Shown here piece by piece: positions 15,520-46,751 of a DNA stretch of 64,000 bases. Under the pieces are notes generated by a model. The model was not told where the DNA came from. It did no database searches and saw only the letters and a program-made list of their open reading frames with translations. Within the stretch, counting starts at the first letter, position 1. Every line of letters begins with the position of its first letter. Source of the stretch: Rhodospirillaceae bacterium (GTDB taxonomy: Bacteria; Pseudomonadota; Alphaproteobacteria; Bin65). Position numbers and translations under genes: made by a program. Location of the stretch: positions 1 through 64,000 of the forward strand of contig JAPPLJ010000063.1 of the NCBI GenBank assembly GCA_028819475.1, in the 5' to 3' direction.

Positions 15520-15747
15520 ATGCCGCGGGTAAGCGCCAAGCGCCAGATTACGCTCCCCGTCGATCAGTGCAGAGAAATCGGGATCGGCCCCGGGGACGAA
15601 TACCGCAGCTTCGTCGCCGACGGACGGATCACCATCGTCCGGAAAACCCCCGGCGCGGCCAGGGGCTTCCTCAGTGGCGTAACCGGGGATCCCGCCGTCA
15701 CGGACGAGGAATCCCTGGAGGGCGCCCTGGGCGGGCCGCAGCCTTGA
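15520..15747 (+). CDS. AbrB/MazE-type antitoxin
   Basis: A 75-residue protein with a SpoVT/AbrB swapped-hairpin DNA-binding domain (about 1-45: RVSAKRQITLPVDQCREIGIGPGD, then ITIVRK) and an acidic C-terminal tail that would bind and neutralise the toxin. The TGA overlaps the toxin's TTG start (TTGA), so translation is coupled. A dyad overlapping its promoter supports autoregulation. Confidence 0.82.
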   Translation: MPRVSAKRQITLPVDQCREIGIGPGDEYRSFVADGRITIVRKTPGAARGFLSGVTGDPAVTDEESLEGALGGPQP

Positions 15748-16178
15748 TCGCCGCCGATACCAACGTCCTGCTCCGGTATCTGCTGTACGACGACGAAGCC
15801 CAGGCGGCACGCGCGGGCGTCGTCTTCGACGCCGGCGAGACCGTGCTGATCACGGACGTCGTCTTGGCGGAAACCGTATGGACGCTGTCCGGCCGCAGGT
15901 ATCGACTGGGCAAGGGCGAACTGGCGGCTGTCCTCGAACGGTTGTTCAGCGAACCGAACATCCGTTTCGAGGATAACCAGACGGTCTGGCGTGCCGTGCA
16001 GGCGTACAAGAGCACCGCGCCGGCAGGCGGAGCCGGGCCGGCGAAAGGCGCGGGTTTCGCCGATGCGCTGATCGCGTTCAAGGCGCTGCATATCACGTCC
16101 GGCGCCGGCGAGGCGTTGACCGGCGTATACACGTTCGACACGGCCATGCAACGGATTCCGCACACCGTCCCGGCGTAG
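15744..16178 (+). CDS. PIN-domain toxin (VapC family)
   Basis: A 144-residue putative Mg-dependent RNase. PIN acidic residues are visible: Asp5 in MIAADTNVLLRYL, Glu43 in LAETVW, Asp107 in GFADALIA, and Asp132 near FDTAM. The TTG at 15744 is chosen because it overlaps the antitoxin stop and puts Asp5 at the usual distance from the N-terminus. Together with the AbrB-type gene it makes a VapBC-like module. Confidence 0.82.
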   Translation: MIAADTNVLLRYLLYDDEAQAARAGVVFDAGETVLITDVVLAETVWTLSGRRYRLGKGELAAVLERLFSEPNIRFEDNQTVWRAVQAYKSTAPAGGAGPAKGAGFADALIAFKALHITSGAGEALTGVYTFDTAMQRIPHTVPA

Positions 16179-16481: not shown

Positions 16482-17231
16482 TCAGCGCAGGGTGGTGCCG
16501 CCGTCGATCGTGATCGACTGGCCGGTCATGAAGTCGCTGTCCGAAGAGGCGAGGAAGAGGAGCGCACCGACGAGATCCTCGGGCTGCTGGTCCCTTTTGA
16601 TCAGCCGCGCCTGGGGCGCCATTTCCATGAACCGGCCCCATTTTTCCGGGTTGGCGAGAATCTGATCGCTCAACACGAAGCCCGGACACAGGCTGTTGAT
16701 CTGCACATTGTGCTCGGCGAGTTCCCGGGCGAGCGATTTGGTCATCACCCAGACTGCGCCCTTCGAAGCCGTGTAATGCGGCATCATCGGCGGGCCGACA
16801 TGGACGACGCCGGAAGCGATGTTGACAATCTTGCCGGCCTTCTTCTCCATCATGATCGGCGCAACCGTCTGGATGCACTGGAACTGGCCGCGGACGTTGA
16901 CCTGCAGCATCCGGTCGAACTCGTCGGCCGCGATCTTCAGGAACGGCTTCGGCGTGAGGCTGGCGAAGATGGCCGCGTTGTTGACTAGAATGTCGACCGT
17001 GCCGAATTCCGCTACCGTGAAATCGGTCATCGCCCGGATCTCGTCGAGACTGGAGATATCGGCCCTGATGAAACGGGCCGCATCGCCGATCTCGCCGGCC
17101 AGCGCCGAGCCGTCGAGGATGTCTGAAACCACCACCCTGGCGCCTTCGGCGGCCAGCGCCTTCGCATAGACGGCGCCGATGCCCTGCGCGCCGCCGGTCA
17201 CGATCGCCACCTTGCCTTCGATACGTCCCAT
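16482..17231 (-). CDS. Short-chain dehydrogenase/reductase (SDR)
   Basis: A 249-residue classical SDR: NAD(P)-binding VTGGAQGIG near residue 12, LVNNAAIF, and active-site Tyr-x3-Lys in HYTASKGAVW. The Pro-Gly block CPGFVLS follows. It is the last gene of a minus-strand unit SDR-sulfatase-SDR, with 19 bp separating it from the sulfatase, so it probably oxidises the alcohol released by sulfate ester cleavage. Substrate unknown. Confidence 0.88.
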   Translation of the reverse strand: MGRIEGKVAIVTGGAQGIGAVYAKALAAEGARVVVSDILDGSALAGEIGDAARFIRADISSLDEIRAMTDFTVAEFGTVDILVNNAAIFASLTPKPFLKIAADEFDRMLQVNVRGQFQCIQTVAPIMMEKKAGKIVNIASGVVHVGPPMMPHYTASKGAVWVMTKSLARELAEHNVQINSLCPGFVLSDQILANPEKWGRFMEMAPQARLIKRDQQPEDLVGALLFLASSDSDFMTGQSITIDGGTTLR

Positions 17232-17250
17232 TCCTTTCCCCCTGAACCGC

Positions 17251-18924
17251 TCACGCCATGAAGGGCGAGAGCATTGCCGTGTCGGTCAGCCGCATGCGTT
17301 CGGCCAGCATGCGCCCGGTCATATCCTGCAATCTGTTCCGGGCCGACGGATCGGACCACAGATTGTTCATCTCGTGCGGGTCGGTATTGCGATCGAACAG
17401 CTCCCCGGTCTCTTCGCCCAGGATCCGGGTCAGCCGCCAGCCGTCGTGGATCAGGGTCCAGGTGCGCAGCCCGAAGTCCATGTCGATATGGAGCCCCGGG
17501 CAATCCTCCTCGATCATCAGGCCAGCGCGCCCGGGTTGCTTGCCGGTTGCCGCCGCGCCGGCGATATCGAACCCTTGCATGCCGGCAGCCGCGGCGACGC
17601 CGGCCCGGTTGAGGATCGTCTGAGCGATGTCGATCGAGCCGCCGAGAACGTCGCTGCGCCTGCCGGTAACTCCGGCCGGATCGGCCCAGATGAAGGGCAC
17701 GCGGATCACGCCCTGATAGTGCAAGCCCTGTTTCAGCATCAGGCCGTGGTCGCCCATGAAGTCGCCGTGGTCGGACGTGAAGACGACCACCGTATCATCG
17801 TCGAGGCCCAGCTCCCGCAGCCGGACGAGGATCCGGCCGATCTGGTCGTCCAGGCAGGAGATCAGGCCGTAGGTCAGCGCCAGGATTTCCCTTGTGTGCC
17901 GTTCTCCGGCGAGAAAGCCCCACATGAAATCGTCGTGCTTCCTGCCTTCGGCGGCGTGGGCGCGCAGGGTCCGCAGATAGCGCGGCTCGCCGCGGTTGAC
18001 ATGGTCGTGGGACGGCGGGAGCGGGATTTCCTCCGGATCGTACATGTCCCAGTATTTGCCCGGCGGACAGAAGGGGTTATGCGGGTCCGGGAAACTGCAG
18101 AACAGGAAGAAGGGCTCTTTCCCGCCGGCCTGCCGCTCCAGCCAGTCGATCGTCCGGTCGGCGACCCAGGTGCTGGACCACAACTCCTCCGGCACCGCGG
18201 TGCGCCAGGCCTGGGGAGCGGTGACGCCGCCTTTGTCGAGGCCGTTCGGCGGTCCCACCTTGCTCGCGATATCCGGGTCTTGCCGGGCGCGCCAGACAGC
18301 ATAGTCGCCGCCGACCCAGTCGCCGTGGCCGTTGGCGATCTCGACATGGTCGAAACCGTAATAGGGCGTCGGTACGGTGTAGTCGGGGTTCACCCGCCAC
18401 TGCCCGGTCCACTCCAGGTCGTAGCCCGGTCCGGTGCGCCATTCGCGCGTCGCATTCCACAAGGCGTCGTCGCGGCCGATCGGCTCCTCGCCGACGCCGC
18501 GGGTACGGCGCGGCCGGTCGGGGTCGATGCCCGGCTGCGGTACGGCCATTGCCGATTTGACGCTCGGCGGCTCCGGCGCCTCGAGCGATACGTCCTGTTT
18601 GGAGATGTTCTGGAAGTGCGCCTTACCGATCAGTCCGGTGCTGTAGCCCTCGGCCTTCAACAGGTCGACGAACGTGACCGCATCCAGCGAAAGCGGGAGG
18701 CCGTTCTGGCGCACGCCGCTGGCGCTCGGCGTGCGGCCGGTCAGGATGGTCGCCCGGTTCGGCATACAGATCGGGCAGGAAACGTAGAATTCGTCGAAGG
18801 CAAGGCCGCGGCGGGCGAGGGAATCGATGCTCGGCGTCCGGAGCAACGAGTTGCCGTAGCAGCCCAGGTGATCGGCCCGGTGCTGGTCGGTGATAATGAA
18901 CAGGAAGTTCGGTTTCTTCGCCAC
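17251..18924 (-). CDS. Type I sulfatase (formylglycine-dependent)
   Basis: A 557-residue sulfatase cleaving sulfate esters. The N-terminus NFLFIITDQHRADHLGCYG carries metal ligands, and the formylglycine motif CMPNR (Cys53 to Arg57, in CPICMPNRATILTGR) fits C-x-P-x-R. Later blocks GKAHF and FTSDHGDFMGDHGL supply further metal ligands. No signal peptide is evident, so it is probably cytoplasmic. Maturation would need a formylglycine-generating enzyme, not in this window. It lies between two SDR genes with 12-19 bp gaps. Confidence 0.9.
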   Translation of the reverse strand: MAKKPNFLFIITDQHRADHLGCYGNSLLRTPSIDSLARRGLAFDEFYVSCPICMPNRATILTGRTPSASGVRQNGLPLSLDAVTFVDLLKAEGYSTGLIGKAHFQNISKQDVSLEAPEPPSVKSAMAVPQPGIDPDRPRRTRGVGEEPIGRDDALWNATREWRTGPGYDLEWTGQWRVNPDYTVPTPYYGFDHVEIANGHGDWVGGDYAVWRARQDPDIASKVGPPNGLDKGGVTAPQAWRTAVPEELWSSTWVADRTIDWLERQAGGKEPFFLFCSFPDPHNPFCPPGKYWDMYDPEEIPLPPSHDHVNRGEPRYLRTLRAHAAEGRKHDDFMWGFLAGERHTREILALTYGLISCLDDQIGRILVRLRELGLDDDTVVVFTSDHGDFMGDHGLMLKQGLHYQGVIRVPFIWADPAGVTGRRSDVLGGSIDIAQTILNRAGVAAAAGMQGFDIAGAAATGKQPGRAGLMIEEDCPGLHIDMDFGLRTWTLIHDGWRLTRILGEETGELFDRNTDPHEMNNLWSDPSARNRLQDMTGRMLAERMRLTDTAMLSPFMA

Positions 18925-18936
18925 GCGACGCGCTTC

Positions 18937-19695
18937 CTACAGGTGCACCGAGCCGCCGTCAGCGGCGATGGTCTGGCCGGTGATGTAGCCGCTGGCGTCC
19001 GACGCGAGGAAGACGGCGAGGCCGGTGAGATCGCCGGGCCGGCCCAGTTCCTTGAGGCATTGCACCTCGATCATCTTTTCGCGGATGGCGTCGGTCCGGC
19101 CGACATTCTCGACCTCGGTCTCGATCAGGCCGGGCATGATGGCGTTCGCCGTAATGCCGTCCGGCCCCAGCTCCCGCGCCATCACCCGGGTCATGCCGAT
19201 CACCGCGCTTTTCGACGTCACATAGTGCATGAAGCGCGGCAGGCCCATCGGCACCGTACTCGAAGAAATGTTGATAATACGGCCCTTCTTTCTGGCCCGC
19301 ATGTCCGGCAGGACCGCGGCCGCGCACAGCATGCTGCCCGTGACGTTCACCCGCATCACCCGGTCCCATTCCTCGAGCGGGATGTCTTCGAATCCGCAGC
19401 GGCCCAGCTTAGTGAAGATGGCCGCGTTATTGAGCAGAATGTCCGTGCCGCCAAATGCCTTGCGCGCCGCAGCCGCCATCGCGTCGACGGACGCCGGCTC
19501 GCCGACATCCGCCTGCACGGCGATGGCCGAGCCGCCGGCGTCCTCGATTTCGCCGGCGACCACTGCGGCGTTGGCGCCGTTCAGGTCGGCCACCGCGACG
19601 TTGGCGCCTTCCTGCGCCAAGGCCAGGGCGTAGGCGCGGCCGATGCCCTGTCCGCCGCCGGTGACGATGGCGGTCTTGCTGTCCAGAATTGCCAC
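18937..19695 (-). CDS. Short-chain dehydrogenase/reductase (SDR)
   Basis: A 252-residue classical SDR with VTGGGQGIGRAYALAL, LLNNAAIF, active-site HYVTSKSAVIG and C-terminal SGYITGQTIAADGG. It is the first gene of the SDR-sulfatase-SDR operon. Clearly different from the SDR at 16482, so the two probably act on different steps or stereoisomers. Confidence 0.88.
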   Translation of the reverse strand: MAILDSKTAIVTGGGQGIGRAYALALAQEGANVAVADLNGANAAVVAGEIEDAGGSAIAVQADVGEPASVDAMAAAARKAFGGTDILLNNAAIFTKLGRCGFEDIPLEEWDRVMRVNVTGSMLCAAAVLPDMRARKKGRIINISSSTVPMGLPRFMHYVTSKSAVIGMTRVMARELGPDGITANAIMPGLIETEVENVGRTDAIREKMIEVQCLKELGRPGDLTGLAVFLASDASGYITGQTIAADGGSVHL

Positions 19696-32341: not shown

Positions 32342-32674
32342 TTAACCCTTCTCCGCTTTCTTCGCGTCGAAATATTTCTTTGTCGTGAAGCTCAGGCCCC
32401 GCTCGGCATAGCCTCGGCACTGGCGGTCCTTGAATTCGACCGCCTTTTCCCACTCGTCCACGTCGTAGAATTCGCGTTCGGCGACGCAGCGGATTTCCGA
32501 GACCGTGCGCGCATCGAGGCCGAGCTTTTCCGCGATCTCCTCGTCGGAAAGGCCGGGCTGCCGCTGTTCGGCCGGCATATGCTCCGGGTAGTTGACCTGG
32601 ATCGACTGGGACATCGCCACGACCCGGTCGCGGTATGTCCGGTAGACCTCGGGATCGACGAAAAAGAAGGGCAT
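32342..32674 (-). CDS. Small protein associated with the iron-sulfur pair
   Basis: A 110-residue protein, not recognised. It is Lys/Glu-rich, with a possible helix-turn-helix-like segment (LSDEEIAEKLGLDARTVSEIR) at about 42-62 and several aromatic residues (FFFVDPEVYRTYRD, WEKAVEFKD). It has two Cys, too few for an iron-sulfur cluster. It is the last gene of the unit with the two iron-sulfur paralogues, 9 bp after the second, and is probably co-translated. Role unknown. Confidence 0.65.
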   Translation of the reverse strand: MPFFFVDPEVYRTYRDRVVAMSQSIQVNYPEHMPAEQRQPGLSDEEIAEKLGLDARTVSEIRCVAEREFYDVDEWEKAVEFKDRQCRGYAERGLSFTTKKYFDAKKAEKG

Positions 32675-32683
32675 GGCCGGCTC

Positions 32684-33556
32684 CTATCGCAGCTGGCGCT
32701 TCTCGGCGCCCACGGGGCACACGCGCATACATTCGAAACACTGGCCCTGGCTGATGTTGGCGTAGGTCATGGACCACAGCGTGCGGGTCATCAGGTTCGA
32801 GTTCAGGATCATCCGCCGGCGGTCCCGGTCGTCCTCCTCGAACAGCTTTTCCATCGCCTTCTGGAAGCCGGGCACCCAGTAGGTCTGCACCCGGGTGGTG
32901 CAGCGCGCGGCGTCGAACCGCCGGCTCGCGATGCGGCCGTCCTCGAGCGTGCCGCCGATGCAGCCGTCCTCCTCGATCGGGCAAACCGCCATGCACGGCG
33001 TCTTGCCGATATCCTCGTACATCTCCACGCATTCCGGAGCCGGGCAGGCGGGGGTTTCCGGCTGCGGATCGGGCGCCAGCGGCAGGGTGGTGATGACGGC
33101 GGAATAATACATGAAGCCGTAGTCCGGATGGAGCACCGGGCCCGCGAGGCTGGCCGAACCGCAGCCCGCCAGCTCCGCCGCCAGCGACATGCTGAGGAAG
33201 GGCTGCCGCCCCTTGTCCAGCGCCTGCGGAACGTTGAGCGCGTAATAGCCGTAGGTGCGCTCGATATGGGTCGCGACCCGGTTGCCGAGGGCAGAGATAC
33301 GGTCGGTCGTCGAACTGACCTCCATATGCTCGTATTTCGGGCTCTGCCAGTCGGCCGCCCGCGGCTGCGCGCCGCCCATGACCACGACGGATTTCGCACC
33401 GGGCAGGTAATCCGCCGGCCGCTTGCCCTCGGGCGCGGCGGTGAAGGCCCTGGCATCGGCGACGCCCATGACCAGGGCGCCGCTCTTCAGGGCGAAGGCG
33501 CGCAGGTCTTCCTTGATGTTGCTGTCGGTTCCGGCGGCGGTCGGCGCGTCTGCCAT
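32684..33556 (-). CDS. QueG/reductive-dehalogenase-like iron-sulfur protein, paralogue B
   Basis: A 290-residue protein with the core pattern of cobalamin-dependent reductases (QueG and reductive dehalogenases): LPGAKSVVVMGG, ELAGCGSAS, PDYGFMYYSAVITTLPLAPD and a C-terminal ferredoxin-like part. Cysteines are arranged as CPAPEC-x11-CMAVCP and CFECMRVCPVG; the first block departs from the usual CxxCxxCxxxCP. No Tat signal or membrane anchor is seen, and it lacks the QueG C-terminal HEAT region. It lies 4 bp after paralogue A. Confidence 0.7.
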   Translation of the reverse strand: MADAPTAAGTDSNIKEDLRAFALKSGALVMGVADARAFTAAPEGKRPADYLPGAKSVVVMGGAQPRAADWQSPKYEHMEVSSTTDRISALGNRVATHIERTYGYYALNVPQALDKGRQPFLSMSLAAELAGCGSASLAGPVLHPDYGFMYYSAVITTLPLAPDPQPETPACPAPECVEMYEDIGKTPCMAVCPIEEDGCIGGTLEDGRIASRRFDAARCTTRVQTYWVPGFQKAMEKLFEEDDRDRRRMILNSNLMTRTLWSMTYANISQGQCFECMRVCPVGAEKRQLR

Positions 33557-33560
33557 GGTC

Positions 33561-34472
33561 TTACTTCAGCTTGCGTTCCTTGCGCCCGATCGGGCACACG
33601 CGCATGCATTCGAAGCACTGGGCCACGCTTTCCTTGTAGAAGCTGACCGAACTGCACGACCGGGCGAAGAAATCCGAGTTGATCATCATCCTCCGCTTGT
33701 CCCGGTCCTCCTCCTCGGCGATCTGTTCGAGCGCCTTCTGGAAGCTCGAAATGCCGAAGTTCATCGAGCGCGAGACGCAGCGTTCCCGGTCGTAATAGAC
33801 ATGCTCCATGTTGCCGTCTTCGTCGATCGAGCCGTCGAGGCAGCCGCCGTCGTCCGCCGGGCAGGCGGCCATGCAGGGCGTCTTGCCGATATGGCGGTAG
33901 GTCTGCACGCACATGGGCGCCGGGCACACCCCCTGTTCGAGCATGTCGTCGTAGTCGAGTTCCAGCGTCGTCAGGCAGGCCGAGTAATAGAGCAGCCCGT
34001 ATTGCGGATTGAGGATGATGTTGGCGGCGAAGGAGCGGGTGCCGCAGCCGGCGAGCACGGCGGCCAGCATCATCGACATGCGCGGCTGGTAGCCGGCGGT
34101 CGGCAGGGCCGGGCCCTGCATGGCGTAGTAGCCGAGCTTCCGCTCGATATGGTCGGCGACGACGTGGATTGCCCGGTCGTTGGCGAAATCGTAGCCGTTG
34201 ACCTCCATGATCCGGTGGTCGGGCGACTGCCAGGCGCCGGCGTTCGGCCCGCGCACGCCGACGACGATGACCGATTTCGCGCCCGGCAGGATATCGTAGG
34301 GGCGATACCCTTCGGGGACATACTCTTCCCAGCGCTCGACCGGCGCGATCCCGACCACGTCGCCGCCGGCCTTGAGCGCGAGCGCCTTGATATCGGCGGT
34401 CCGCCGGGTCCGTTCCGGCAGCCGCGGCGCGGTCTCGCGCTCCTCAGAACGGGTTGCGCTACTGGTGGACAT
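33561..34472 (-). CDS. QueG/reductive-dehalogenase-like iron-sulfur protein, paralogue A
   Basis: A 303-residue paralogue of the next gene, with matching blocks LPGAKSVIVVGV, AVLAGCGTRSF, PQYGLLYYSACLTTLELDYD, CPAPMC, KTPCMAACP and CFECMRVCPIG. The same unusual first cysteine block is conserved, so it is a family trait, not an error. Adjacent, co-transcribed, divergent paralogues suggest a heteromeric complex or substrate specialisation. Cobalamin binding is inferred from family resemblance only. Confidence 0.7.
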   Translation of the reverse strand: MSTSSATRSEERETAPRLPERTRRTADIKALALKAGGDVVGIAPVERWEEYVPEGYRPYDILPGAKSVIVVGVRGPNAGAWQSPDHRIMEVNGYDFANDRAIHVVADHIERKLGYYAMQGPALPTAGYQPRMSMMLAAVLAGCGTRSFAANIILNPQYGLLYYSACLTTLELDYDDMLEQGVCPAPMCVQTYRHIGKTPCMAACPADDGGCLDGSIDEDGNMEHVYYDRERCVSRSMNFGISSFQKALEQIAEEEDRDKRRMMINSDFFARSCSSVSFYKESVAQCFECMRVCPIGRKERKLK

Positions 34473-34728: not shown

Positions 34729-36027
34729 ATGTCCGATCCGTTTCAGTTGCCGGCGTCGCGAGACGATATCCGGGCGATCCAGAGCCGGCGCAAGCGCGCC
34801 GCCTTCGAGCGCGCAAAGCGGGCGAAATGGTATGCCGCCAGGCTGGACGGCATCGATCCCGACCGCCTGGACGAGCCGGAGGAGTGGGCGAAGATCCCGG
34901 TCCTGGACAAGGACATCCTGCGCCAGTGGTCGCACCGGGAGTTCATGGACCGGCTCTGCATCGTCGACAACACGGACATCGCCGAGTACTGGCGTTCGGG
35001 CGGCTCGACCGGCAAGCCGGTCTTCTATCCGCGCACCTTCGCCGACGTCGACTACGGCATGCTGTCGTGGCGCCGGGCCTGGGGCGTGACCGAAACGCCG
35101 CCGGGCGAACTGGCGCATATCTGCTTTCCCATCGGCGTCCATCCGGCCGGCCAGGTCTGGGCGCGCGGCGCCCACGGCGCGGGCGTCGGCGTGTTGTGGG
35201 CCGGCGCCGGCAATGCGATGCCGACCCGGGCGCAACTGGAGCTGATCGCCAATATCCGGCCGACCGTGCTCGTCGGCATGCCGAGCTTCGCCTTGCACAT
35301 GGCGAACATCGCGGACGCCGAAGGCATCGACCTGCGCGAGAGCAGCATCGCGCGGATCATCACCGCCGCCGAGACGCTGTCGGACGCCAAGCGCGAAAAG
35401 CTCAGCCGCGACTGGGGCGCCGAGGTGTTCGACGTGTTCGGCATGTCCGAGGCCGGGCTGATGGGCGGCGAGGGCAAGGCCCATGACGGCATCCACATCT
35501 GGACCGACCTCTATTTCATCGAGACGGTGGACGAGCAGACCCTGGAGCCGCTCAACGACGAGCGGCCGGGCATGTTGCTGGTCACGCCGCTGGTGACCGG
35601 CCACGCCACGCCCTTCCTGCGCTGGAATTCAGGCGATATCGTCTCGCTGCACGACGGCGGCGCGACCGGCCACCGCTATGCCGAGCTGTTCCCCATGATC
35701 CGCCACGCCCACCGCACCGCCGGCTTCTTCAAGGTGCGCGGGATTAACGTCAATCACACGGACTTCGAGGATTTCATCTTCGCCGACCCGAAGGTGAACG
35801 ATTTTCAGGTGGTGCTGAACACAGGGGAGTCCGGCCTGGAGGACGTCCTGCTGCGCCTGGAGTTGAAGCGCGGCGCCGATACGACGGAAGCCGTGGATAC
35901 GCTGCGCTTCAGAATCCGCCAGACCTTCGAGCTGGCGGTCGCGACCGAGGTGCTGCCCAACGGCGAACTGGGCAAGGATTTCGAGAAATTCATGAAGGCG
36001 CCCCGCTTCGTCGACCGGCGGGTGTAG
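34729..36027 (+). CDS. Phenylacetate-CoA ligase-family (PaaK-like) adenylate-forming enzyme
   Basis: A 432-residue acyl-activating enzyme. Nucleotide-binding SGGSTGKPVFY (about 92-102), AAETLSDAKREKL, the FGMSEAGLMGG segment that holds the adenine, and the PaaK-type C-terminal domain (VRGINVNHTDFEDFIF). It would make an acyl-CoA (or acyl-AMP) from a carboxylic acid. The ATG at 34729 begins the usual N-terminus; the frame is open upstream with Arg/Pro-rich, non-homologous sequence. Substrate unknown. Confidence 0.85.
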   Translation: MSDPFQLPASRDDIRAIQSRRKRAAFERAKRAKWYAARLDGIDPDRLDEPEEWAKIPVLDKDILRQWSHREFMDRLCIVDNTDIAEYWRSGGSTGKPVFYPRTFADVDYGMLSWRRAWGVTETPPGELAHICFPIGVHPAGQVWARGAHGAGVGVLWAGAGNAMPTRAQLELIANIRPTVLVGMPSFALHMANIADAEGIDLRESSIARIITAAETLSDAKREKLSRDWGAEVFDVFGMSEAGLMGGEGKAHDGIHIWTDLYFIETVDEQTLEPLNDERPGMLLVTPLVTGHATPFLRWNSGDIVSLHDGGATGHRYAELFPMIRHAHRTAGFFKVRGINVNHTDFEDFIFADPKVNDFQVVLNTGESGLEDVLLRLELKRGADTTEAVDTLRFRIRQTFELAVATEVLPNGELGKDFEKFMKAPRFVDRRV

Positions 36028-36166: not shown

Positions 36167-36230
36167 CACCGGTTCGGGTCGAGTTCGGATGATTGACGAA
36201 CATGCGAAGACAATATGGAAGGATACTCCG

Positions 36231-36998
36231 ATGGCGGACGTTTCCCTGCAAAACCGCACCGCGCTGGTCACCGGAGCGGGCTCGGGCATGGGGCAGGCCC
36301 ACGCCGAACTTCTGGCCGGGCGCGGCGCTCACGTCATCGTGCAGGATATCGTGCCCGAACGGACGGAAGCGGTTGCCGGGGCGATCCGCACCGCCGGCGG
36401 TTCGGCCGAGCCGCTGCCTGGCGACGCTGCGGATATCCGCGCCATGCAGGCGGCGGTCGAGGGGATCGCCGGGGCACGCGGCGCGGTCGATATCCTGGTC
36501 AACAATGCCGGCATCTCCGGCCGTCAGCTTCCGTTCGAGCAGATCGACGAGGCCGGTTACGACGCGATGCTGGCCATCCATGTCAAATCGGCCTTCTTTC
36601 TCAGCCAGGCGGTCGTCCCCGGCATGAAGGCCCGGCGCTGGGGCCGGATCATCAACGTGTCCTCGATGTTCGCCATGATCGGCAGCCCGAACGCGCCGCA
36701 TTATACGGTCGCCAAGGGCGCGCTGCTGGGGCTGACCAAGGCGCTGGCGCGCGAGCTCGGCCCGTGGAACATCACCGTCAATGCCCTGGCGCCGGGCCTG
36801 GTGAAGACCGAAATGACGCAGATGAGCCTGAACGACGATGCGGAATTCGAGCGCCGGGCCGCGACGGTGCCGATGCGGCGGCTCGCCGAACCCCGCGACC
36901 TTGCCTATGCGGTCGCCTTCCTGGCTTCCGATCAAGCCGCCCTGATGACGGGCCAGACGATCAGCCCGAACGGCGGCAACGCCATCGTCGGCATCTGA
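36231..36998 (+). CDS. Short-chain dehydrogenase/reductase (SDR)
   Basis: A 255-residue classical SDR with VTGAGSGMGQAHAELLAGRG, LVNNAGISG, active-site HYTVAKGALLGLTKAL and LAPGLVKTEM. The ATG at 36231 has a GGAAGG ribosome site; an ATG at 36189 would add 14 residues without homology. It may share a promoter with or work after the PaaK-like ligase, but a 200-bp gap separates them. Confidence 0.88.
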   Translation: MADVSLQNRTALVTGAGSGMGQAHAELLAGRGAHVIVQDIVPERTEAVAGAIRTAGGSAEPLPGDAADIRAMQAAVEGIAGARGAVDILVNNAGISGRQLPFEQIDEAGYDAMLAIHVKSAFFLSQAVVPGMKARRWGRIINVSSMFAMIGSPNAPHYTVAKGALLGLTKALARELGPWNITVNALAPGLVKTEMTQMSLNDDAEFERRAATVPMRRLAEPRDLAYAVAFLASDQAALMTGQTISPNGGNAIVGI

Positions 36999-42976: not shown

Positions 42977-44041
42977 ATGGGCGACGGTTATATCCGGAAT
43001 GCCTGGTATGTCGCGGCGTGGCACCACGAGCTTCCGGGCGGCGTGGACCGCGCGCCGCTCGCCCGCACGCTGCTCGGCGAATCGGTCGTGCTGTTCCGTC
43101 AGGCCGACGGAACCCCGGCAGCCCTGGAAGACCGCTGCCCGCACCGGCGCATGCCGCTCTCCATGGGGTCGGTCGTCGGCGACAACCTGCAATGCGGCTA
43201 TCACGGATTCACCCTGAACGCCGCCGGACGCTGCGTGCGCATACCCGGCCAGGACAGCATCCCCGAGGCCGCCCGGGTGCGCGCCTATCCGGTTGTCGAG
43301 AAATGGCGCTGGATCTGGATCTGGCCGGGCGATCCGGCGCTGGCCGACGAAAGCCTGATCCCGGACGTTGCCCTCAACGACCATCCGGACTGGGCCGTCA
43401 CGGAGGGCGATCCCCTGCATGTCGAGGGGCATTGCCAGCTTGTCGTCGACAATCTGATGGACGGCTCGCACGTCTCCTTCGTGCACAAGTCGACGCTCGG
43501 CACCGACGATGTCGCCGACATTCCCGTGCGCGCCGAACGCGACGGCGACCGTGTGCGCATGACCCGCTGGATCCTGGACCGGCCGCCGGCGCCGATCTAC
43601 GCCGCGCTCGGCGGGTTCGAGGGCAATGTCGACCGCTGGCAGATCATCACCTTCGAACCGCCGGCGATGGTGGTGGTCGATATGGGCAGTGCGGCGGCCG
43701 GAACCGGCGCGCCGGAAGGCGACCGCAGCCGGGGCGTGGAACTGCGGTCCTTCAATCTGATCACGCCGGAAACCGACCGGAGCTGTTTCTATTTCTATAC
43801 CCATGTGCGCAACTTCGCGCTGACGGATGCGGACGTGGACCGGCGGGTCAGGGACCTGTTCCGTGAAGCGTTTCTGGAGGACAAGGCCGTCATCGAGGCG
43901 GTGCAGCGGGGCAACGAGCGATTCCCCGACAGCCCGCGCGTCGATGCCGCCTTCGACCGGGCGCCGACGATGGCGCGGCGCACCGTCGAGCGGCGTGCCC
44001 GGCAGGAAGCGGCGGCGCCCCGCGCCGTTGCCGCGGAATAG
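42977..44041 (+). CDS. Rieske non-heme iron oxygenase, alpha subunit (VanA-like)
   Basis: A 354-residue aromatic ring- or O-demethylating oxygenase. Rieske cluster ligands are Cys54-x-His56-x16-Cys73-x2-His76 (CPHRR ... CGYHG). The mononuclear iron site is in DNLMDGSHVSFVHKSTLG. Sequence style and length resemble vanillate demethylase-type single-component oxygenases. It is divergent from the deacetylase-liv operon and 17 bp upstream of the flavin monooxygenase. Its reductase is not in the window. Confidence 0.88.
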   Translation: MGDGYIRNAWYVAAWHHELPGGVDRAPLARTLLGESVVLFRQADGTPAALEDRCPHRRMPLSMGSVVGDNLQCGYHGFTLNAAGRCVRIPGQDSIPEAARVRAYPVVEKWRWIWIWPGDPALADESLIPDVALNDHPDWAVTEGDPLHVEGHCQLVVDNLMDGSHVSFVHKSTLGTDDVADIPVRAERDGDRVRMTRWILDRPPAPIYAALGGFEGNVDRWQIITFEPPAMVVVDMGSAAAGTGAPEGDRSRGVELRSFNLITPETDRSCFYFYTHVRNFALTDADVDRRVRDLFREAFLEDKAVIEAVQRGNERFPDSPRVDAAFDRAPTMARRTVERRARQEAAAPRAVAAE

Positions 44042-44058
44042 CCGGAAGGGCGGGGCGC

Positions 44059-45261
44059 ATGGCGGAAACGGACCGGGTAATCGTCGCGGGCGCGGGGCCG
44101 GTCGGCATGACCGCCGCCGCCTACCTGGCGCTGCACGACATTCCGGTGCTGGTGCTGGAGGCGGGCGACGACCTTGCGACCGACCTGCGCGCCTCGACCT
44201 GGCATCCGCCGACCCTGGACCTGCTGGATTTCTTCGACGGCATCGTCGCGGAGCTTGCCGGCTGGGGCCTTGTCGCGCCGACCTGGCAGTATCGCGACCG
44301 GGAGACCGGCCCCGTCGTCACTTGGGACCTGGGCCTGCTCAGGGACGACACCGGCCACCCCTACCGGATCCAGGCCGAGCAGTGGAAGCTGACCCGCCTG
44401 CTGCACCGGCGCATGGCGGACGTGGCGCATTTCGATCTGCGCTTCGGCCATGAGGTGACCGGGGCCGGCCAGGACGGCGACCGCGCCTGGGTTGCCGCGA
44501 ACACCGCGGACGGCATCGAGAAATTCGAAGGCCACTGGGCGATCGGCTGCGACGGCGCCAACAGCGCGGTGCGCCGCTCGCTGGGCGTCGCCTACGACGG
44601 GCTGACCTTTCCGGAGTTGTTCCTGACGCTCTCGACCGGCTTCGAATTCCGCGGGCCGATGCCGGACCTCACCCTGGTCAACTATTTCGCCGATCCCGAG
44701 GAATGGCTTGTGCTGCTCCGGGTCGTCGACGCCTGGCGGGTGCTGTTCCCGACCGGCCCGGACGAGGACATGCAAGTTGCGCTGACCGACGAACGGGTGC
44801 AGGAGCGGCTGGACGGTGTTGCGCCGGGCTGCGGCCCGTTCGATGTCGTGCACAAGACGTATTACCGGGTCCATCAGCGGGTCGCCGACACCTACCGGAT
44901 CGGCCGCATCCTGCTGGCCGGCGACGCCGCGCACATCAACAACCCGCTCGGTGGCATGGGCATGAACGGCGGCATCCAGGACGCCTTCAGCCTGTGCGAA
45001 AAGCTGGTCTCCGTCTGGCGCGGCGAAGCGGAAGAAACGGTGCTCGACCGCTACGAGCGGCAGCGCCGGAAGATGGCGCTGGATTTCGTGCAGCAGTCGA
45101 CCGTCCGCAACCGCGAGACCCTGATGGAGACCGATCCGGTGCTGCGGGAGAAACGGCACGACGAGATGCGTCGCACGGCCGGGGATCCGGCGAAGGCGCG
45201 CGAATTCCTGCTGCGCAGCTCGATGATCGCCGGGTTGCGCGAAGCCGAGGCCATCCCCTAA
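44059..45261 (+). CDS. FAD-dependent aromatic monooxygenase
   Basis: A 400-residue class A flavoprotein hydroxylase: FAD site VAGAGPVGMTAAAYLAL, DGANSAVRRSLG (DG motif) and GDAAHINNPLGGMGMNGGIQDA. Substrate is probably a phenol or hydroxylated heteroarene. The Cys-free C-terminus suggests no thioredoxin-like domain (as in PhhA-type). Middle gene of the plus-strand oxygenase operon. Confidence 0.88.
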   Translation: MAETDRVIVAGAGPVGMTAAAYLALHDIPVLVLEAGDDLATDLRASTWHPPTLDLLDFFDGIVAELAGWGLVAPTWQYRDRETGPVVTWDLGLLRDDTGHPYRIQAEQWKLTRLLHRRMADVAHFDLRFGHEVTGAGQDGDRAWVAANTADGIEKFEGHWAIGCDGANSAVRRSLGVAYDGLTFPELFLTLSTGFEFRGPMPDLTLVNYFADPEEWLVLLRVVDAWRVLFPTGPDEDMQVALTDERVQERLDGVAPGCGPFDVVHKTYYRVHQRVADTYRIGRILLAGDAAHINNPLGGMGMNGGIQDAFSLCEKLVSVWRGEAEETVLDRYERQRRKMALDFVQQSTVRNRETLMETDPVLREKRHDEMRRTAGDPAKAREFLLRSSMIAGLREAEAIP

Positions 45262-45327
45262 GGACAGAAGCGAACCCCGCACAAGCGGACCTGCCGGGCC
45301 GATCCGGCCGAGCCACAGGAGCGAAAC

Positions 45328-46074
45328 ATGGTCGATTCGATCGGTCACCGCATGAAATTCGGCGTCATTGCGCCGTCCACCAACACGGCCGTGCAGCCGG
45401 AATTCGATTCCTTCCGGCCCTGGGGCGTGACCAACCATTTCGCGCGCATCCACATCCCGGACAATCCGATCGGCAGCGACGAGGATTTCAACCAGCTGAT
45501 GGTCGACATCCGGGCCGAGTTGATGGTGGCGATCGACCGGGTGGTCACCTGCTCGCCGGGCGCCGTGATCATGGGCATGTCGGCGGAAACCTTCTGGGAC
45601 GGTCTCGAAGGTTCCAGGATATTCCACAAGAACTGCGAGGAACGGGCCGGCGTGCCGGTCTCGATGGGTTCGGACGCCTGCCAGGCGGCGCTGCGCAAAT
45701 ACGGCGATATCAAAAGGATCGGCGTGGTCACGCCCTACATGCCGGTGGGCGACGGGAATGTCCGCAAGTTCTTCGAGGATTGCGGCTTCGAGGTGGTCGC
45801 CCTCAAGGGCCTGAAATGCGCCAGCCCGCAGCTGATCGCCCATGTTTCGGAGCGGGAACTGCGCGATGCGATCGTCGAGGTGAACGACAGCCGGGTCGAG
45901 GCCATCGTGCAGGTCGGCACCAACCTCGCCATGGCGCGGGTCGCGGCGATCGCGGAGTTCTGGCTCGACAAGCCGGTGATCGCGATCAACACGGCGACCT
46001 ACTGGTGGTCGCTGCGCCAGCAGGGCATCGACGACAGGGTCTACGGCTGGGGCAGCCTGATGCAGGATTATTGA
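45328..46074 (+). CDS. Maleate isomerase/arylmalonate decarboxylase-like (Asp/Glu racemase superfamily) protein
   Basis: A 248-residue protein with the N-terminal GVIAPSTNTAVQPEF and GSDACQAALRKYGDIKRIGVVTPYMPVG of the maleate isomerase group. The position of the first catalytic Cys reads Gly83-Met84-Ser85-Ala86 (VIMGMSAETFW), and the second reads QVGTNLAM without a Cys. Maleate isomerases use two Cys, so classical isomerisation is unlikely. In context it may act late in the aromatic pathway, on a cis-diacid or maleamate-like product. Confidence 0.78.
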   Translation: MVDSIGHRMKFGVIAPSTNTAVQPEFDSFRPWGVTNHFARIHIPDNPIGSDEDFNQLMVDIRAELMVAIDRVVTCSPGAVIMGMSAETFWDGLEGSRIFHKNCEERAGVPVSMGSDACQAALRKYGDIKRIGVVTPYMPVGDGNVRKFFEDCGFEVVALKGLKCASPQLIAHVSERELRDAIVEVNDSRVEAIVQVGTNLAMARVAAIAEFWLDKPVIAINTATYWWSLRQQGIDDRVYGWGSLMQDY

Positions 46075-46110: not shown

Positions 46111-46509
46111 TTACCGAATTGTATCCCATCCAGTGTCGACATCGTAGAGCGAGAGGACGGGATCGCCGGAAATCAGTGTGAGCGATTCTATCGCCGCTTG
46201 CGCAACGAGCATCCGGTCGAAGGGATCGCGGTGGTGCAGCGGCAGGTTGCCGGCGCGCTTTGCATGGGCGGCGTTAATGGCCAGCATCGAAAAGCCGATG
46301 TCGGTAAAACAGGCCGGCATCGTTTCGACCGCGGCGGCGGCGGCCGGAAGCTTTCCGAGTTTCGACTTGATCGCGATTTCCCAGATCGTCGCCGCGCTCA
46401 CGAACGCTTCCGTGTCGGGATGTGCCACGATATCCCGAATGCGTCGGGGAATCCGGTTGTCGCCTTTCAGCCACCAAAGCGCGACATGCGTGTCGAGGAG
46501 GACGCGCAT
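46111..46509 (-). CDS. PIN-domain toxin (VapC family)
   Basis: A 132-residue putative RNase: Asp6 in MRVLLDTHVALWWLKGD, Glu44 in TIWEIAIKSKLGKL, Asp95 in HRDPFDRMLVAQA and Asp116 in LISGDPVLSLYDV. Typical of PIN toxins paired with Phd-type antitoxins. It follows its antitoxin by 5 bp. Confidence 0.88.
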   Translation of the reverse strand: MRVLLDTHVALWWLKGDNRIPRRIRDIVAHPDTEAFVSAATIWEIAIKSKLGKLPAAAAAVETMPACFTDIGFSMLAINAAHAKRAGNLPLHHRDPFDRMLVAQAAIESLTLISGDPVLSLYDVDTGWDTIR

Positions 46510-46514
46510 CGCAA

Positions 46515-46751
46515 TCAGCGATACCAGGCCTCAAGTTCTTCGTCCGGGAGGGGTTCGAAAAATTCCGGACCTACGTCGATAAGCCCCTTCATCGAACCGA
46601 AGCCTTTCGATTTGTCCACCTTCGCCGCGTAGGGCACGAGACGCACAACCGGTCGGTCGCCTCGTGCGATGACGATTTCCTCGCCCGCTTCGACGCGTTT
46701 GATCAACTTCGACAAATGGGTTTTTGCGGCGTGCACCGTAACGGTCGCCAT
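46515..46751 (-). CDS. Phd/YefM-type antitoxin
   Basis: A 78-residue protein: DNA-binding N-terminus TVTVHAAKTHLSKLIKRVEAGEE, IARGDRPVVRLVP, and a C-terminal toxin-binding tail (GPEFFEPLPDEELEAWYR). A strong ribosome site (AAGGAGATC) precedes the ATG. A perfect 10-bp palindrome lies 20 bp upstream and may be its operator. Confidence 0.88.
   Translation of the reverse strand: MATVTVHAAKTHLSKLIKRVEAGEEIVIARGDRPVVRLVPYAAKVDKSKGFGSMKGLIDVGPEFFEPLPDEELEAWYR

Follow-up and report, generated by a model that had tools for sequence, protein, structure and literature searches.

A paired QueG/RdhA-like reductase gene set with a small partner gene, linked to acyl-CoA ligases in Alpha- and Gammaproteobacteria

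Three adjacent genes of a sponge-associated Rhodospirillaceae bacterium, denoted here A, B and S, encode two paralogous proteins of the QueG/RdhA type and a small helical protein, and are found together, mostly close to genes for acyl-CoA ligases, in Alpha- and Gammaproteobacteria. There is, in our estimate, an even chance that the products form a heteromeric cobalamin/[4Fe-4S] reductase of CoA-activated acids in (halo)aromatic catabolism, with S linking the reductase to the ligase. The genes were analyzed in a window of 64,000 nt (GCA_028819475.1, contig JAPPLJ010000063.1, positions 1-64,000, forward strand), where all three lie on the minus strand at 32342-34472, as the original prediction had placed them. 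The relevant features of the window are the following.

33561..34472, minus strand: A, QueG/RdhA-like reductase subunit, 303 aa (open reading frame, profile, model), with a putative cobalamin-binding fold at about residues 20-175 and a di-[4Fe-4S] module at about residues 183-295
33861..33926, minus strand: first cysteine block of A, CPAPMC-x11-CMAAC, C183..C204 (position from translation)
32684..33556, minus strand: B, paralogous reductase subunit, 290 aa, 47% identical to A
32342..32674, minus strand: S, helical protein, 110 aa, with an HTH-like segment at about residues 43-69
34729..36027, plus strand: PaaK-like (phenylacetate-CoA-ligase-like) AMP-forming ligase, 432 aa, divergent, 257 bp from A
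36189..36998, plus strand: short-chain dehydrogenase 3' of the ligase, a possible pathway neighbor on weak evidence

Because the open reading frames of A and B are separated by 4 bp and those of B and S by 9 bp, co-transcription of the three genes is plausible.

At the cut-offs of Pfam and NCBIfam, no family was found for A, B or S. In particular, A and B score 26.2 and 25.0 bits with the RdhA model TIGR02486 (cut-off 160), whereas with the QueG model TIGR00276 (cut-off 200) B scores 16.1 bits (E 0.0044) and A is not detected. No known family with a known role thus claims either protein and, given also that A and B form clades of their own in the tree, the subfamily is distinct, as originally predicted. 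Searches of the PDB with single sequences gave matches at chance level only, and a profile of relatives was needed; the profile of 42 relatives, compared with all PDB sequences, retrieved class III cobalamin enzymes only (QueG, 8e-12; PceA, 5e-10; a second PCE dehalogenase, 1e-8; NpRdhA, 1e-3). The AlphaFold model of A (pLDDT 80.5) superposes best on QueG (Z 17.8, 206 residues, 3.1 A) and then on the dehalogenases PceA (Z 15) and NpRdhA (Z 14.8), followed by the B12 chaperones CblC (Z 10) and CblD (Z 7), with flavin nitroreductases appearing only after these. The profile and the model both point to a cobalamin-binding nitroreductase-like fold and support the assignment of A and B to the class III cobalamin superfamily as soluble members, in agreement with the soluble cobalamin-type fold proposed earlier. 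Binding of cobalamin by A-B is likely; CobN is present in the genome, which speaks to cobalamin supply only.

The altered first cysteine block that marked these proteins out at the start is exact in both, CPAPMC-x11-CMAACP in A (C183..C204) and CPAPEC-x11-CMAVCP in B (C171..C192), in place of the standard CxxCxxCxxxCP of RdhA, and the pattern CPAPxC-x11-CMAxCP is kept in nearly all relatives; it fails only in both copies at locus L028 and in the B of L016, in which one residue is masked. Relative to QueG, the spacer is lengthened by an insertion that separates the second cysteine from the third. The ligands of the two QueG clusters are Cys 184/187/190/243 and 194/210/236/239 (PMC4646009), and their counterparts in the alignment, C183/C188/C200/C293 and C204/C232/C286/C289 of A, are invariant in 21 sequences; the equivalent eight cysteines are kept in the relatives of B, except where a single residue is masked and where one end seems to be frameshifted. 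Both proteins therefore carry the eight cysteines for two [4Fe-4S] clusters by which the class III superfamily is recognized, together with an additional conserved cysteine common to the two (C211 in A, C199 in B). Neither has a twin-arginine (RR) motif within its first 40 residues, and so the Tat signal of respiratory RdhA is absent from both; the HEAT region is likewise missing since A and B end about 10 residues beyond the last cysteine. Y94 is invariant in A, near the poorly aligning region of the active-site Tyr, and has no counterpart in B or in the unpaired relative on C30 described below. The idea that B is catalytically dead for want of this Tyr was rejected because the C30 protein also lacks it.

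Compared with known systems, A and B share with QueG (TIGR00276; 5d08, 5d6s) the cobalamin-binding nitroreductase-like fold, the di-[4Fe-4S] module and the eight cysteine counterparts. They differ from it by the longer spacer, by the lack of the D-Y-H motif and the C-terminal HEAT domain (as aligned with the QueG of the same genome), by occurring as an obligate pair, and by having a CoA ligase and S as neighbors. RdhA (TIGR02486; PceA 4uqu, NpRdhA 4ras) is of the same superfamily and fold (Z ~15), and its catabolic forms resemble A and B in having no export signal; A and B sometimes lie beside a true RdhA, but are shorter, have altered cysteine spacing, reach only 25-26 bits, and come as two paralogous subunits with S. 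CblC and CblD (MMACHC/MMADHC) share the B12-binding nitroreductase-like fold and are known as a two-protein complex (title of 9mrs); unlike A and B, they are B12-processing chaperones without iron-sulfur clusters.

The association of the three genes is strict. In a scan of one genome per species, each of the 20 close relatives of A is followed by B and then S, often with small overlaps, and in the family of the window organism A and B occur together in all seven genomes that have either. The pairing and the small partner proposed at the outset are thereby borne out, homologues of A being never found alone. The carriers are Alpha- and Gammaproteobacteria, and most relatives come from metagenome-assembled genomes. 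With 47% identity (E 2e-81), far above chance, A and B are indeed divergent paralogues; in the tree, A, B and three further groups form separate, well supported clades, and the branching within the A clade agrees with that within the B clade, from which it follows that the duplication is old and that A and B were inherited jointly. It is probable that A and B form a heteromer. The triplet is rare, as only one of 398 sampled genomes of the phylum, the window's own, contains it. No relatives of A were detected in the plasmid and viral collections; relatives of a second pair type, denoted a and b below, appear in plasmids at 24-32% identity only, annotated as QueG, RdhA or otherwise.

The same genome encodes further reductases of this kind, namely a related singleton on C30 and two more tandem pairs on C4 and C50. 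According to the alignment and the tree, the latter represent a second, independent duplication (a/b) without the 11-residue spacer; the a-b gene order is also observed in relatives from other alphaproteobacterial families. QueG-like genes with a different context are present in Bacillota, as a tandem pair (L029:9953-12037) and alone (L031:9947-10777); by eye, their neighbors are a nitrogenase-like component 1, an ABC transporter and an O-acetylhomoserine sulfhydrylase, perhaps for sulfur salvage. The original prediction missed the other reductase pairs and the acyl-CoA ligase neighbor, and did not see that S is homologous to a domain fused to a ligase.

This last homology changes the interpretation of S. 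About 110 residues at the N terminus of the ligase 3' of the C30 singleton form an extra domain, which in other genomes (L088, L081) is encoded by a gene of its own immediately after the singleton. With hhalign, S matches this domain at 96.7% (E 3.7e-10), whereas none of the shuffled, reversed or unrelated controls exceeds 2%. The HTH-like segment noticed in S before is predicted as a helical segment with modest confidence (pLDDT 72.5), but it is sub-threshold in Pfam (best E 0.0055), and a fold search with this modest model gave no match at E < 1. S was rejected as an ordinary transcription regulator given the weak HTH and the homology to the ligase-fused domain, and because of that homology the segment more plausibly belongs to a domain for docking or assembly than to a promoter-binding regulator. 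A docking role for S itself is a reasonable possibility, short of a probable one.

An acyl-CoA ligase is a more constant neighbor of the reductase genes than RdhA. Among the untruncated A-B-S loci, 16 of 17 encode one within about 3 kb (window, L009, L011-L017, L019, L020, L023-L027), in varied positions and as two ligase types; L028, the exception, lacks one even within about 9 kb, and L010, L018, L021 and L022, where the loci are truncated, were left out of the count. About seven of the 17 loci are from near relatives of the window organism. The link extends to L017, L019, L020 and L023-L027, with other ligases in other positions, and in several unrelated loci the ligase gene overlaps or abuts the reductase genes. 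In the window's genome, the C50 pair overlaps the gene of another ligase from the PaaK-like family of the window ligase, a benzoate-CoA-ligase-like gene lies about 20 bp from the C4 pair, and ligases flank the C30 singleton on both sides. Given 47 AMP-binding matches in 4.48 Mb, the contact of all four reductase loci with a ligase is far from chance. The a/b pairs are likewise near ligases. The ligase families are generic and name no substrate. Other neighbors in the window, a VanA-like Rieske oxygenase, an FAD-dependent hydroxylase and an arylmalonate-decarboxylase-like protein, fit aromatic catabolism; their genes stand in a row at 42977-46074, adjoined on the other strand by a branched-chain amino-acid type ABC transporter.

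There is also a link to true reductive dehalogenases. RdhA genes are adjacent in L025, L032, L082, L083, L128 and L135, and the C30 singleton is flanked by an RdhA above the TIGR02486 cut-off, in which no Tat motif was noticed; a relative of this RdhA lies beside A-B-S in L025. Another alphaproteobacterium has an operon a-b-RdhA-acyl-CoA dehydrogenase-CoA ligase (L128:3518-10156, minus strand). Of 289 genomes of the class, eight contain both this RdhA subfamily and members of the A/B/C30 group (Fisher, 7e-12), and counted by family, which removes relatedness only in part, all five families with the reductases are among the seven with RdhA (3e-8). Outside Alphaproteobacteria, 10 of the 11 A-B-S genomes lack the RdhA subfamily, and therefore A-B-S is not only an RdhA accessory; the same count weakens dehalogenation as a general reaction. 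The A of L013, which is 93% identical to that of the window, comes from bin65 of the sponge Aplysina aerophoba (PMC5649159); sponges commonly contain haloaromatic compounds (PMC6081418). The window's genome has about five RdhA homologues (C30:28474, C67:10586, C21:43243, C43:3840, C30:437708), two of them above the TIGR02486 cut-off and one in a 758-residue open frame that is perhaps of the self-sufficient catabolic type.

In the mechanism that we propose, the adjacent AMP-forming ligase would form the CoA thioester of a carboxylic acid, which is most likely aromatic; a ferredoxin-like donor would deliver electrons via the two [4Fe-4S] clusters to base-off cobalamin; and Co(I) would reduce the thioester, most likely with the loss of a substituent such as halide, while S would help the ligase and the reductase to dock. 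A CoA thioester is, by a little, the favored substrate, and dehalogenation is put forward only tentatively as the reaction. The proposed order has a precedent in 3-chlorobenzoate degradation via benzoyl-CoA reductase, where the ligase acts first and halide is then lost reductively from the CoA thioester (PMC5742626, PMC8050959), although that enzyme is unrelated and ATP-dependent and works by dearomatization followed by loss of HCl.

The chief rival explanation is that A-B reduces a free acid, for instance a haloaromatic one, and that the ligase activates the product later, so that the linkage reflects the order of the pathway and not the substrate. Adjacent genes do not reveal which step comes first, and the catabolic relative NpRdhA has been crystallized with a halogenated hydroxybenzoate in free form (title of 6zy1); the overlapping or abutting genes in unrelated loci and the relationship of S to a ligase-fused domain, which suggests physical coupling, argue the other way, and we regard a free acid as unlikely. 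It is more improbable that A and B serve a neighboring RdhA as electron donors, B12 chaperones or reactivators and are not themselves substrate reductases. The resemblance of their fold to CblC and CblD and the strong co-occurrence with RdhA in Alphaproteobacteria, with adjacency in several loci, would fit such a role, but the ligase is the more constant neighbor, and as a general account this one was rejected on the distribution outside Alphaproteobacteria.

Less probable still is a loss of cobalamin that would leave A and B as simple iron-sulfur electron carriers with two clusters on an old fold: B shows no clear active-site Tyr, but the whole cobalamin-binding fold is retained, and the AGxG and following segments are strongly conserved. 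That A and B represent a local duplication of tRNA epoxyqueuosine reductase, as the weak TIGR00276 score of B might hint, is practically out of the question, with scores far under the cut-off, no D-Y-H motif or HEAT region, and a separate QueG-like gene in the genome (C30:119806).

The literature describes two kinds of class III cobalamin enzymes, the reductive dehalogenases and the epoxyqueuosine reductases (PMC4646009, PMC7585037), and a search of open-access papers for QueG-like or RdhA-like genes with CoA ligases gave no description of the present group. It is conceivable, and we advance it with reserve, that A-B-S represents the first class III cobalamin reductase of heteromeric make-up, with CoA thioesters received from a physically docked ligase as its substrates, and that it belongs to a third branch with at least two independent pair lineages (A/B and a/b). 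If this is true, the branch would stand beside tRNA epoxide reduction and the dehalogenation of free organohalides, and would mean a new reductive chemistry on activated acids. The organisms that carry A-B-S, of which some come from marine sponges, are not known to respire organohalides. The A-B-S triplets are concrete, expressible gene sets for testing, and the L128 operon, being compact, is a further candidate for such tests.

Elsewhere in the window, inspection by eye indicates a sulfatase-like gene with a short-chain dehydrogenase on each side (16482-19695) and two small gene pairs resembling PIN-domain toxin-antitoxin modules (15520-16178 and 46111-46751).
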